From Erysipelotrichaceae bacterium (GTDB lineage Bacteria > Bacillota_I > Bacilli_A > Erysipelotrichales > Erysipelotrichaceae), in contig JAFRLM010000022.1 in NCBI GenBank assembly GCA_017431225.1, forward strand, positions 1-64,000: a stretch of 64,000 nucleotides of DNA, read 5' to 3'. The first letter of the stretch is position 1. Each line of letters starts with the position of its first letter. The position numbers and the translations under genes were made by a program. Below the pieces are notes generated by a model. It was not told where the DNA came from, did not search any database, and saw nothing but the letters and a program-made list of their open reading frames with translations. Positions 10,936 to 15,516 of the stretch are shown here, piece after piece.

Positions 10936-10964
10936 TTGACAGACAGTAGTTGGCATGTTAAATT
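10936..10964 (+). promoter_or_regulatory. Sigma-A type promoter of the pyr leader
   Basis: TTGACA (10936-10941), a 17-bp spacer and TAAATT (10959-10964). Transcription would start near 10971. Confidence 0.65.
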
Positions 10965-10991
10965 AGGTCAGGCAACAAATCTTTAAACGAT

Positions 10992-11012
10992 ACAGAGAGA
11001 TCGGCAAGAGTG
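10992..11012 (+). promoter_or_regulatory. Possible PyrR-binding RNA loop
   Basis: ACAGAGAGATCGGCAAGAG resembles the PyrR target (CCAGAGAGGxxxGCAAGAG) found in Bacillota pyr leaders. It lies between the promoter and the first terminator, the expected place. The match is partial and no pyrR gene is in the window. Confidence 0.5.
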
Positions 11013-11038
11013 TTGGAAGTTGAATAACGGAAAAACAG

Positions 11039-11064
11039 GTCTTGTCGAGTGGCAGGACTTTTTT
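11039..11064 (+). terminator. First pyr attenuator (terminator)
   Basis: An 8-bp stem (11039-11046 with 11051-11058, two G-T pairs), GAGT loop and six T. It lies about 70 bases after the predicted start of transcription. Confidence 0.6.
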
Positions 11065-11078
11065 ATCGGGAGGCGCAT

Positions 11079-11171
11079 ATGGATTCCAGAGGGACGAAGT
11101 TCAGAAATGATGATCACAGCGGTCATGGAAATGGCTTTGTCTTCTCTTTTTTCCGGTTGTTCAGGTCGTAG
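11079..11171 (+). CDS. Putative pyr leader peptide
   Basis: GGGAGG ends four bases before the ATG at 11079, which opens 30 codons ending in TAG at 11169-11171. The second half is Phe-rich (GFVFSFFRLFRS) because it reads a pyrimidine/U-rich stretch, and the stop codon lies in the loop of the second terminator. This is the layout of the enterobacterial pyrBI leader peptide (PyrL), where UTP shortage lets the ribosome keep up with RNA polymerase and block the hairpin. The peptide has no other recognisable function. It could also be a chance ORF; the ribosome site, U-tract and stop position argue against that. Confidence 0.5.
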   Translation: MDSRGTKFRNDDHSGHGNGFVFSFFRLFRS

Positions 11172-11191
11172 ACCTGGCAGCCGGTTTTTTT
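11153..11191 (+). terminator. Second pyr attenuator (terminator)
   Basis: Outer stem CCGGTTG (11153-11159) with CAGCCGG (11178-11184), inner stem CAGGTC (11162-11167) with GACCTG (11171-11176), loop GTA-side 3 bases, then seven T. It stands 51 bases before carB. Confidence 0.82.
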
Positions 11192-11241
11192 ATATCACGG
11201 TTGTCTAAAAAACTTTGAAAACATAGTTTCAGGAGGGAAAT

Positions 11242-14200
11242 ATGGCAAAAAGAACAGATATCAAGAAAGTACTGATCATCGGCTCCGGGCCGATCGTGAT
11301 CGGTCAGGCGGCAGAATTTGACTATGCCGGCACCCAGGCGATCCTGGCTCTCAAAGAGGAGGGCTATGAGGTCATTCTCTGCAACTGCAATCCGGCCACC
11401 ATCATGACCGATACCGCGCTGGCGGACAAGGTCTATATGGAACCCCTGACACTTGAATATGTCGCGAAGATCCTGCGTTACGAACGTCCGGACGCGATCA
11501 TCCCCGGTATCGGCGGACAGACCGGACTGAATCTGGCGATCCAGCTGGACAAGAAGGGCGTTCTGCAGGAGTGCGGTGTAAAGCTCATGGGCACCTCAAG
11601 AGAGAGTATCGAAAGAGCGGAAGACAGACAGCTGTTCAAGGAGATGTGCGAAACGATCGGCGAACCCACGATCCCTTCGGAGATCACCTACAGCATCGAA
11701 GAAGCTGTGGAAGCGGCGAAGCATATCGGTTATCCGGTCGTCCTGCGTCCGGCCTTCACCCTCGGCGGGACCGGCGGCGGTTTTGCCTACAGTGAGACCG
11801 AACTGAAGGAACTGGCGGTCAATGCTTTTGAGCTGTCCCCGGTCCATCAGGTCCTGATCGAGAAAAGTGTAAAAGGCTATAAAGAGATCGAATTCGAGGT
11901 CATGCGCGACGCGTCTGACCGCGCGATCACGATCTGCGGCATGGAGAATGTCGATCCGGTCGGCGTTCATACCGGCGACTCCGTGGTCGTCGCGCCGATC
12001 CTTTCTTTAAATGAGCACGATCTGAAGATGCTCAACGAGAGCGCGATCAAGATCATCCGCGAATTAAAGATCGAAGGCGGCTGCAATGTTCAGTTCGCTT
12101 TAAATCCCAACAGCAGCGAGTACTACCTGATCGAGGTCAATCCCCGTGTATCCCGTTCCAGTGCCCTGGCTTCCAAAGCCAGCGGTTATCCGATCGCCCG
12201 CGTCACCGCCAAGGTCGCTATGGGCATGACTTTGGATGAGATCGAGGTAGCCGGCGGGACCGCGGCGATCGAGCCCTCCCTCGACTACATCGTCGGCAAG
12301 TTCCCGCGTTTCCCGTTTGATAAATTCACAACGGTTCCGAACGTCTTAGGCACACAGATGAAAGCGACCGGTGAAGTCATGGGCATCGGTGCCAATCTTG
12401 AGGAATGCATGCTGAAGTCGGTCCGTTCGCTTGAGATCGGCTGCAATCATCTCCTGCTTCCCAAATTCAGCGCGATGAGCAGCGAAGAGATCTATGAATA
12501 CCTTAAGGAATTCAAATCCGATACGATCTTCGCGGTCACTGAACTGATCAGAAGGGGAGAGGATCTCGATAAGCTTCATGAAGTCACGATGATCACCGGA
12601 CTTTTCCTCGAAAGTCTTAAGAAGATCACCGACAAGGAAAAGGAACTTGCGGCGCATCCCTTTGATCTTGAAGTGCTGACTTCCGCCAAGAAGATGGGTT
12701 TCTCAGACCCTTTCATCGCATCTTTATGGAACTGCAAGGAAACTGAAGTCTTCGACTTCCGTGCGAAAAATGATCTCTTCCCGGTATACAAAATGGTCGA
12801 CACACTGCATACCGGCAAATATATCGCTTATCTCTACTCCTCCTATACCGGTGAGAACGAATCCCGGATCTCTGACAGAAAGAAGATCATCGTTCTCGGC
12901 GCCGGGCCGATCCGTATCGGCCAGGGCGTGGAATTCGACTATTCGACTGTCCATGCGGTCCAGACGATCCAGAAAGCCGGCTACGAGGCCATCATCATCA
13001 ACAATAACCCGGAGACTGTCTCCACAGACTACACCTGTTCCGATAAGCTCTATTTCGAGCCGCTGACACCGGAAGATATCCTTAACATCCAGCGGCTGGA
13101 GAATGCCGACGGCGTGATCGCCACCCTGGGCGGCCAGACCGCGATCAACCTCGCGGATGCGCTGGACAAAAGAGGTGTTAAGATCATCGGCACCGATGTC
13201 GAAGCGATCGACAGAGCCGAGAACCGCGACAGTTTTGAGAGAGTGCTGGAAGAGCTTGATATCCTGCATCCTCCGGGAAAAGCCGTCACGACGATCGAAG
13301 ACGGCATTGCCGCCGCCGAGGAAGTCGGTTATCCGGTACTTGTCCGTCCGAGCTTCGTCTTAGGCGGGAGAGCGATGCAGATCGTCAGCAACAACGAGCA
13401 GCTGCGCCAATACCTGCGGACAGCTGTTGAGATCGATGAGGACAAGCCGGTCCTCGTCGACAAATATATCGTAGGCAAGGAAGTTGAGATCGACGCGATC
13501 TGCGACGGCGTCGACGTCTTTGTCCCGGGCATCATGGAATTGGTCGAAAGAACAGGTATCCACTCCGGTGACTCGATCAGTGTCTATCCGACTTACTCGA
13601 TCTCCGATAAAGTCAAAGGTGTGATCCTGCAGTATGCGAAGAAGCTCGGTCTCGGGATCGGGATCATCGGCATCTTCAATATCCAGTTCATCGTCGATAA
13701 AGACGATAATGTCTATGTCATCGAAGTCAATCCGCGTTCCTCGAGAACGGTTCCTTTCCTCTCCAAAGCCACCGGTTATTCGCTGGCGGATATCGCTACC
13801 GAAGTCATCCTGGGCAAGAGCCTGAAAGAGCAGGGGATCTTCAGTATCTATCCGGAGGAAAAGAAACGCTATTACGTCAAAGTCCCGGTCTTCTCCTTCA
13901 ACAAGATCAAGGGCATCGACGCATACCTCTCTCCGGAAATGAAATCGACCGGCGAAGCGATCGGCTATGATGACCACCTCAACCGCGCGCTTTACAAGGC
14001 GCTGCAGGCTTCCGGCATGAAACTGAAGAATTACGGCACCGTCTTCGCGACGATCGCAAACGCGGATAAGGAAGAGGCACTTCCGCTGATCCGCCGTTTC
14101 TATGACCTCGGCTTCAACATCGAAGCTACCCCGGGAACCGCCAGATTCCTCAAGGAGCACGGTATCCGCACACACGTCCGTCAGAAGATCTCCAAGGATC

Positions 14201-14415
14201 CCGAAGACATCAAGACGGCGATCCGTCAGGGTCATATCGCTTATGTCATCAACACCAGAAATATGGGCTCGATGACGGCATTCAATGACGGCGCGGAGAT
14301 CCGCAAGTGCGCTACCGAGAACAACACGACGATCTTCACTTCGCTCGATACCGTAGCGGCGCTGCTGGATGTTCTTGAGGAGATCACCCTGCGCGTTTCC
14401 ACGATCGACGCCTGA
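11242..14415 (+). CDS. carB: Carbamoyl-phosphate synthase large subunit
   Basis: A 1057-residue protein with the usual length of CarB. It makes carbamoyl phosphate from bicarbonate, ammonia and two ATP. Two homologous ATP-grasp halves are visible: the first begins with IIGSGPIVIGQAAEFDYAG (residues about 13-31) and the second with VLGAGPIRIGQGVEFDYS near residue 551; the C-terminal allosteric domain includes ATPGTARFLKEHGI. GGAGGG precedes the ATG. It is the first gene after the pyr leader. The small glutaminase subunit gene carA is not adjacent or anywhere in the window, which is unusual because the two normally form one operon. A strong terminator follows. Confidence 0.97.
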   Translation: MAKRTDIKKVLIIGSGPIVIGQAAEFDYAGTQAILALKEEGYEVILCNCNPATIMTDTALADKVYMEPLTLEYVAKILRYERPDAIIPGIGGQTGLNLAIQLDKKGVLQECGVKLMGTSRESIERAEDRQLFKEMCETIGEPTIPSEITYSIEEAVEAAKHIGYPVVLRPAFTLGGTGGGFAYSETELKELAVNAFELSPVHQVLIEKSVKGYKEIEFEVMRDASDRAITICGMENVDPVGVHTGDSVVVAPILSLNEHDLKMLNESAIKIIRELKIEGGCNVQFALNPNSSEYYLIEVNPRVSRSSALASKASGYPIARVTAKVAMGMTLDEIEVAGGTAAIEPSLDYIVGKFPRFPFDKFTTVPNVLGTQMKATGEVMGIGANLEECMLKSVRSLEIGCNHLLLPKFSAMSSEEIYEYLKEFKSDTIFAVTELIRRGEDLDKLHEVTMITGLFLESLKKITDKEKELAAHPFDLEVLTSAKKMGFSDPFIASLWNCKETEVFDFRAKNDLFPVYKMVDTLHTGKYIAYLYSSYTGENESRISDRKKIIVLGAGPIRIGQGVEFDYSTVHAVQTIQKAGYEAIIINNNPETVSTDYTCSDKLYFEPLTPEDILNIQRLENADGVIATLGGQTAINLADALDKRGVKIIGTDVEAIDRAENRDSFERVLEELDILHPPGKAVTTIEDGIAAAEEVGYPVLVRPSFVLGGRAMQIVSNNEQLRQYLRTAVEIDEDKPVLVDKYIVGKEVEIDAICDGVDVFVPGIMELVERTGIHSGDSISVYPTYSISDKVKGVILQYAKKLGLGIGIIGIFNIQFIVDKDDNVYVIEVNPRSSRTVPFLSKATGYSLADIATEVILGKSLKEQGIFSIYPEEKKRYYVKVPVFSFNKIKGIDAYLSPEMKSTGEAIGYDDHLNRALYKALQASGMKLKNYGTVFATIANADKEEALPLIRRFYDLGFNIEATPGTARFLKEHGIRTHVRQKISKDPEDIKTAIRQGHIAYVINTRNMGSMTAFNDGAEIRKCATENNTTIFTSLDTVAALLDVLEEITLRVSTIDA

Positions 14416-14439
14416 TCAGAAGTTTTATCCTGAAACGAA

Positions 14440-14467
14440 CAGACCTTCACTGAAGGTCTGTTTTTTT
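14440..14467 (+). terminator. Rho-independent terminator after carB
   Basis: CAGACCTTC (14440-14448) pairs with GAAGGTCTG (14452-14460), followed by seven T. Confidence 0.9.
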
Positions 14468-14528: not shown

Positions 14529-15380
14529 ATGAAAAAGAAATGCGATCTCCACTGTCATTCCCTGTTTTCCGACGGGACACTGACGCCTGCCGAACTTGTG
14601 AAACTCGCCGAAGAGAAAGGGATCTCGGCGCTTGCGCTGACAGACCACAATACTTCCAGCGGCCTGAAGGATTTTATGGATGCCGGAAAGAACAGCAAGG
14701 TGATCACGGTGCCCGGCTGCGAGTTCACAACGGAATGGCACGGAAAGGAAGTTCATATCGTCGGTCTTTTCTTCCGTGAGGAATACTGGAACGAGATCGA
14801 GGACTTTATGGAACTGGCAAAGATCGCCAAGCTCAACAGCAACAACCGTCTGATCGAGAATCTGAACAAAGCTGGGTATGAGATCAGCGTTGAAGAAGTC
14901 GCCGCGCTGACGGACGGCAACTACAACCGCGCCCATGTCGCCCGGGTCCTGATGGTTAAGGGCTATGTGAAAAGCGTTTCCGAAGCCTTTGAGACTCTGC
15001 TCAAGGAAGGCAACGGTTTCTATTTCCCGGCCAAGCGTATCCAGTCGGCGATGGCGGTCCGTTTCATCAAGACCTATAAAGCCACCGCGATCGTGGCGCA
15101 TCCTCTGCTCAACCTGACGCCGGAGGAGCTTGAGGTCTTCCTGCCGGAGATGAAGGAAGCCGGTCTGGACGCGATGGAGACCCATTACACCGAATTCACC
15201 GAAGAGATGACCGGGATCGCTGTCAGTCTGGCGGAGAAGTTCGGGATCAAGCAGAGCGGTGGCTCGGACTATCACGGCAAGACCAAACCCTGGATCGAAC
15301 TGGGTGAGGGCAGGGGTGATCTTTTCGTTCCCTATTCCTTCTATGAAGACATGCTGGAGTGCTCCGATTATCCCCGTTAA
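14529..15380 (+). CDS. PHP-domain phosphatase (TrpH/YciV-like, nucleoside 3',5'-bisphosphate or RNA 5' exonuclease type)
   Basis: A 283-residue metal-dependent phosphoesterase of the PHP superfamily. The metal motifs are all there: HCHSLFSDG (residues about 6-14), ALTDHNT (36-42), GCEF plus HIVG (about 62-80), VAHPLL near residue 193 and SDYHG near 257. The E. coli relative YciV/RNase AM hydrolyses 3',5'-nucleoside bisphosphates and trims RNA 5' ends; the same is plausible here. It sits between carB and pyrB but has terminators or promoters on both sides, so it is probably its own unit. TAAAAT at 14515-14520 is only eight bases from the start codon, hinting at a leaderless or nearly leaderless message. 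Confidence 0.85.
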   Translation: MKKKCDLHCHSLFSDGTLTPAELVKLAEEKGISALALTDHNTSSGLKDFMDAGKNSKVITVPGCEFTTEWHGKEVHIVGLFFREEYWNEIEDFMELAKIAKLNSNNRLIENLNKAGYEISVEEVAALTDGNYNRAHVARVLMVKGYVKSVSEAFETLLKEGNGFYFPAKRIQSAMAVRFIKTYKATAIVAHPLLNLTPEELEVFLPEMKEAGLDAMETHYTEFTEEMTGIAVSLAEKFGIKQSGGSDYHGKTKPWIELGEGRGDLFVPYSFYEDMLECSDYPR

Positions 15381-15474: not shown

Positions 15475-15516
15475 CTATTCAGATAAGAGCTGAGACCTTA
15501 TCTTGGAGGAGATTAT

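Follow-up and report, generated by a model that had tools for sequence, protein, structure and literature searches.

A carB Leader with a Predicted PyrR Attenuator and a Second, Possibly Ribosome-Gated Terminator in a Ruminant-Gut Genus of the Erysipelotrichaceae

Introduction

Translation-coupled attenuation of pyrimidine genes has been described for enterobacteria, and attenuation by PyrR for Bacillota. In an Erysipelotrichaceae genome, the gene for the large subunit of carbamoyl-phosphate synthase (carB) is preceded by a leader that contains a predicted PyrR attenuator (module 1) and, downstream of it, a short open reading frame that overlaps another terminator (module 2). The open-access literature searched yielded no account of a single leader in which PyrR attenuation is combined with a translated leader ORF of this kind.

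Results

Organization of the carB Leader

All positions refer to the window, which is the whole stretch of 64,000 nt that was analyzed. It represents contig 3 in a genome that has a size of 1.56 Mb, is 85.8% complete, and is denoted here as G000. The carB leader (10936–11241, about 270 nt) is located directly upstream of carB, and its features are listed in Table 1. The full sequence of the predicted PyrR binding loop is UCUUUAAACGAUACAGAGAGAUCGGCAAGA, which includes the loop core CAGAGAGATCGGCAAG at 10993–11008. The preliminary description of this DNA had proposed a TTGACA/TAAATT promoter, a PyrR-like loop (about 10992–11012), a first terminator (11039–11064), and an additional module with GGGAGG, an ATG, 30 codons, and a TAG in the loop of a second terminator (11153–11191). 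Each of these elements was recovered, the loop and the first terminator with the slightly different boundaries given here and in Table 1.

Table 1. Features of the carB Leader in the Window
Feature	Position	Strand	Basis or remark
Promoter TTGACA-17-TAAATT, extended −10 TG	10936–10964	+	Hexamers largely kept in all congeners
Predicted PyrR binding loop (anti-antiterminator), UCUUUAAA CGAU ACAGAGAG AUCG GC AAGA	10980–11009	+	Fold; core recurrence; compensatory changes
Antiterminator 1, GGCAAGA (11003–11009) with UCUUGUC (11040–11046)	11003–11046	+	Read from sequence
Terminator T1 of the PyrR attenuator; stem 11037–11060, then T run	11037–11064	+	Fold and terminator scan
Leader-ORF Shine-Dalgarno sequence, GGGAGG here and CAGGAG in G002 and RUI017	11068–11073	+	
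Leader ORF MDSRGTKFRNDDHSGHGNGFVFSFFRLFRS, 30 codons; ATG at 11079, TAG at 11169–11171	11079–11171	+	
Hairpin P1 within the ORF, 3′ arm running into the U run	11088–11147	+	Predicted fold
U-rich tract GGCUUUGUCUUCUCUUUUUU abutting T2	11133–11152	+	
Terminator T2; stem 11153–11184, then T7; stop codon at hairpin positions 17–19	11153–11191	+	
carB ribosome site and start	11230–11244	+	Read from sequence
carB, carbamoyl-phosphate synthase large subunit	11242–14415	+	

Assignment of Module 1

The 20-base loop core was identified in 72 contig stretches by an exact scan of the GTDB genomes, where about 1 match would be expected by chance for a 20-mer in 257 billion bases. Nearly all of these 72 stretches continue with a terminator complementary to GGCAAG and, directly downstream, a pyrimidine gene. 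These genes, assigned by reading the N-terminal part of the encoded proteins, are mostly for dihydroorotase, and pyrB, pyrF, carB, and uracil permease are also represented. The loop in the carB leader fits the published core of Bacillus subtilis PyrR sites, ARUCCAGAGAGGYU (PMC7430163), with the CAGAGAG loop, the short upper stem, and a lower part of the UCUUUAA type all present. In other genera of the family the upper stem is altered in a compensatory manner from CGAU/AUCG to CGGU/ACCG. The GGCAAGA:UCUUGUC pairing overlaps the 5′ arm of T1, so that the two structures are mutually exclusive, and the pairing is kept in the congener G001 as GGCAAG:CUUGCC. A pyrR gene scoring over the NCBIfam cut-off is found in 4/4 genomes of the genus. 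Taken together, the occurrence of the loop core before pyr genes, the compensatory stem change, the fit to the published core, and the presence of pyrR in the genome argue for module 1 as a PyrR attenuator of the usual type.

The carB leader is unmatched by the Rfam PyrR model (RF00515) at its gathering threshold. The same model at the same threshold matched 0/15 loci scanned (L081–L152, from Clostridia and Chloroflexi MAGs), most of which carry the same loop before pyr genes. RF00515 seems to miss this loop subtype, which would reflect insensitivity of the model and not the failure of a defining feature. For the carB leader no Rfam family of any kind reached its gathering score, and only chance-level matches appear up to an E value of 10.

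Distribution and Sequence States of Module 2

Five carB leaders were compared: that of G000, those of three congeners (G001, G002, and G003; CarB identities, from highest to lowest, of 98, 96, and 89%), and that of RUI017 (L148), which was obtained from the GTDB scan. A complete module 2, from the Shine-Dalgarno sequence to T2, is present in 5/5 of the carB leaders found for this one ruminant-gut genus. Among 316 genomes of the order, module 2 was not found outside the genus by either an order-wide DNA search, which returned elsewhere only fragments of 23–32 bases in three other genomes, or a search with the T2 pattern, which matched the genus only. The PyrR leaders in the other genera of the family proceed from T1 to the gene with no module between. 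As a separate observation, among 86 PyrR-loop loci a few from outside the genus (L082, L100, L119, and L123) gave a pair of hairpin calls, which were either near each other or far downstream; these are clostridial leaders with a second hairpin before the gene, and other tandem arrangements may exist.

The five leaders fall into three sequence states (G000 with G003, G002 with RUI017, and G001). Every state contains the Shine-Dalgarno sequence, the ATG, exactly 30 codons, and a pyrimidine-rich or U-rich run placed against T2, and the stop codon occupies hairpin positions 17–19 in all of them (UAG, UGA, and UAG). There are no insertions or deletions in the ORF of any of the five leaders, whereas the linker that precedes T1 and the spacer that follows T2 do contain indels. 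According to the preliminary description, its reading would be supported by relatives that keep the ribosome site, the U-tract, and the stop in the loop with variable peptide residues, and this is the pattern observed. No leader retains the terminator after loss of the ORF or of its ribosome site, as all five keep both, and neither a second PyrR site nor an accompanying antiterminator was found conserved across the states.

The predicted folding energy of T2 in G000 is −21.1 kcal/mol, compared with a mean of −9.1 for shuffled sequences. The values for the three states are −21.1, −17.5, and −23.6 kcal/mol, and the fold stays strong although the upper stem has been rebuilt. T2 was missed by a consensus terminator scanner and is supported by the fold and the comparative data. 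The hairpin P1 is predicted in G000, G003, and G001 but not in G002, and may be regarded as a possible pause hairpin.

Constraint on the Leader ORF

Module 2 is identical in G000 and its sister species G003, with 0/93 changes in the ORF, and the four-fold sites of carB differ by 20% between these two genomes. The neutral probability of 93 unchanged bases is near 1e-9 (0.797 to the power 93). Relative to G000, there are 34 substitutions per 93 bases of the ORF in G002 and 18 in G001, and the frame is open with the stop codon at the same position in both. When equal numbers of substitutions were placed at random, the frame and the stop were kept in 12% of the trials for G002 and 34% for G001, for a combined simulated chance of about 0.04. 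The frame evidence alone is moderate, and it gains from the stop codon, which went from UAG to UGA by way of three substitutions and kept its place.

The changes at codon positions 1, 2, and 3 in the three comparisons are 11/14/9, 8/7/3, and 10/13/7, respectively, and the third position is not the most variable. The unchanged ORF in G000 and G003, together with residue divergence without an excess at third positions, indicates that the ORF segment is under constraint and that this constraint does not act on the encoded peptide. The U-tract contains 2/21 changes to G001 and 7/21 to G002, and codons 2–18 contain 14/51 and 24/51. Arg codons are kept in all states at positions 4, 9, 26, and 29. 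The number of Phe codons in the three states is 6, 6, and 2; the description of the ORF as Phe-rich holds for G000, with six, but this property is not conserved, since G002 has only two.

Proposed Mechanism

The reading that we favor, with a probability of about 0.55, is that the leader would operate as two transcription attenuators in series, one of the PyrR type and the other a ribosome-gated T2 that depends on a UTP-paced pause of RNA polymerase. By analogy with known PyrR systems, PyrR together with UMP or UTP would bind the loop and block antiterminator 1, and T1 would form. Transcripts that extend past T1 would expose the ribosome site and the 30-codon ORF. At low UTP, RNA polymerase would linger in the U-rich tract immediately before T2, and the ribosome would then catch up with the paused polymerase and cover the T2 stem at codons 25–31, preventing T2 from forming and permitting transcription of carB. 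With a fast polymerase, T2 would fold first and transcription would end. The assignment of UTP as the pause signal is one that we infer only, from the pyrBI leader, in which UTP determines the outcome through components of the same kinds (PMC5021804; PMC3641672).

Ribosome gating of T2 is preferred because what all states still share is a site for ribosome binding, an ORF whose length does not vary, and a stop codon in the hairpin. The context also counts for this mechanism, as T2 follows a PyrR attenuator and precedes a pyrimidine gene. In Escherichia coli, termination at a hairpin drops from roughly 90% to less than 10% when ribosomes are at a stop codon that lies 5 bp ahead of it (PMC4824070). 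Against the mechanism are its occurrence in a single genus with three distinct sequence states, a stop codon inside the terminator, unlike pyrL, and the absence of P1 from G002. The pyrBI system requires tight coupling across pyrL (PMC5021804). Transcription and translation in B. subtilis are functionally uncoupled (PMC7858274), so that kinetic coupling cannot be taken for granted in the Bacillota lineage described here.

Alternative Explanations for T2

The leader ORF could gate T2 by sensing the slowing of ribosomes, whether from stalling at particular codons, from general translation capacity, or from an inhibitor, instead of UTP. Leader ORFs in B. subtilis that control vmlR and bmrCD make use of stalling in this manner (PMC9226507), and the four conserved Arg codons would be compatible with it, as would the final codons CGG TTG TTC AGG TCG TAG in the T2 arm, which include rare ones (CGG is used for 11% of Arg, AGG for 6% of Arg, TTG for 4% of Leu, and TAG for 5% of stops). 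The T2 stem also imposes these rare codons, however, the gene is pyrimidine-specific, and an antiterminator like that of vmlR was not identified in the carB leader. Control of carB by arginine is unlikely because argH is absent in 4/4 genomes, and control by phenylalanine was set aside since the Phe codons are not conserved. The four conserved Arg codons are scattered, and the ORF has no conserved stretch of control codons that correspond to an amino acid synthesized by the operon. Sensing of ribosome slowing is considered unlikely.

The ORF might also be fortuitous, or a small gene with no regulatory role, with T2 acting as a fixed partial terminator or marking an old gene end. This is compatible with frame evidence that is moderate when taken alone, with frame 1 also being open in G000, and with the possibility that the constraint between G000 and G003 acts on RNA. 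It is opposed by the stops that the control frames carry in G001 and G002, by the exchange of one stop codon for another in place, and by the retained ribosome site and ATG. A conserved small protein is excluded by the codon-position pattern and by the divergence of 13–19 of the 30 residues among states, compared with 89–96% identity in CarB. A fortuitous ORF is thus held to be improbable. Even less credence is given to the idea that another protein or RNA element, such as a second PyrR loop or a riboswitch, switches T2. Sequences that resemble the CAGAGAG of the PyrR loop occur in the ORF of G001 (UUCAGAGAGACGGAG) and of G000 (CCAGAGGGACGAAG), but the motif is missing in G002 and RUI017 and the UCUUUAA half is absent, and a second PyrR site in the ORF was rejected. 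The linker of G000 (11019–11035) can pair with the U-tract and the T2 arm, but this pairing is no better than that of shuffled sequences and was likewise rejected. There is no conserved antiterminator for T2: the location of the best partners of its 5′ arm varies from species to species, and these partners do not exceed shuffles (shuffle fractions of 0.17, 0.92, and 0.63 for long-range pairing). The Rfam search described above, without a family at gathering score, also speaks against such an element.

Discussion

Comparison with Known Attenuators

The resemblance of module 2 to the pyrBI leader (pyrL) of E. coli and Salmonella is one of design. Both contain a leader ORF with a good ribosome site that overlaps an intrinsic terminator before a pyrimidine gene, a U-rich tract late in the ORF, and no antiterminator hairpin that could be found. 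The ORF has 30 codons here and 44 in pyrL of MG1655. The pyrL frame spans the whole terminator and stops immediately ahead of pyrB, whereas the stop codon here is in the T2 loop, and the U-run in MG1655 precedes the hairpin by about 25 nt, whereas the U-tract here touches the stem. In addition, the carB-leader ORF is preceded by a PyrR attenuator and is located in Bacillota, where a UTP response is proposed by analogy only. The leader peptide has no resemblance by eye to that of E. coli pyrL, and module 2 is at most a functional analogue of the pyrBI leader and not a homologue. The preliminary description, in likening the leader to pyrBI, is upheld for two attenuators in series, the first of the PyrR type and the second overlapped by a leader ORF; its parallel does not extend to the stop in the loop, the U-tract that abuts the stem, or the Phe codons that are not conserved.

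The pyr operon of B. subtilis shares with module 1 the binding loop, the antiterminator, and the terminator, and pyrR is found in the genome in both cases. There the PyrR attenuator is repeated three times (PMC7430163), and in the carB leader the second attenuator lacks a conserved PyrR site. Two attenuating devices with different inputs are also combined in the leaders of Salmonella mgtCBR and Bacillus clausii metE (PMC3641672); these consist of two ORFs and two riboswitches, respectively, and the carB leader would combine a protein-bound loop with an ORF. Translated leader ORFs that control a terminator in Bacillota are represented by vmlR and bmrCD (PMC9226507) and by the hisS leader peptides of bacilli (PMC2965389). 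These differ in responding to stalled ribosomes or His codons, and vmlR acts via an antiterminator. The carB leader, a PyrR switch followed by a terminator that is probably ribosome-gated, is best described as a variant of known attenuators.

Rho, Coupling, and Significance

Rho is absent from the genus, with matches of 26–44 bits versus a cut-off of 509. The coding-strand purine bias is also absent (0.51), and rho-less Bacilli have been reported with a weak purine bias (PMC13323073). The bias is lacking because rho is missing, and its absence hence says nothing about coupling. As a gauge of coupled versus runaway transcription, the distance from stop codon to terminator was compared with that in E. 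coli. The median here is 24 nt, with 21% of distances under 12 nt. This distribution may resemble that of E. coli, but the E. coli value of 23 nt comes from a sample of only 15 terminators, and the comparison has no B. subtilis control.

It is possible, at somewhat less than even odds, that a pyrL-like terminator, gated by the ribosome and paced by UTP, has arisen in a Bacillota lineage and acts in series with PyrR attenuation, so that the pyrimidine pool is read twice. If true, the logic of pyrBI would have arisen by convergent evolution, and a single leader would sense the pool through PyrR and again through the speed of the polymerase relative to the ribosome. RNA polymerase and the ribosome would then be kinetically coupled, at least locally, in a rho-less lineage of a phylum whose model species is uncoupled. 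Coupling outside B. subtilis would, if this reading is true, be directly testable with one small leader.

Pyrimidine Genes near carB

The carB stop codon is followed, at about 14438–14467, by a hairpin that has a T run and resembles a terminator, and the carB transcript therefore probably contains one gene. Beyond this hairpin, between carB and pyrB, is a gene for a PHP-domain phosphoesterase (14529–15380) that is similar to RNase RNM/nucleoside bisphosphate phosphatase. Upstream of pyrB (15482–15510), a small inverted repeat AGATAAG...CTTATCT is found right before the Shine-Dalgarno sequence GGAGG. No PyrR loop is present upstream of pyrB and a promoter-like TATAAT lies upstream of the repeat; the control of pyrB may differ from that of carB.

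The small subunit of carbamoyl-phosphate synthase (carA) is below the cut-off in 4/4 genomes (G000–G003), one of which is reported as 100% complete, and the control was positive in 14/14. The carB gene is intact despite the missing carA, and CarB may use free ammonia or an unrecognized partner. The neighbors of carB differ in G001 (L005/L077), where, by ORF reading, an ACT-domain-like protein and then a DUF711-like protein are encoded on the same strand. The carB gene of G001 is without PHP-pyrB-pyrC behind it, yet the full two-module leader is kept.
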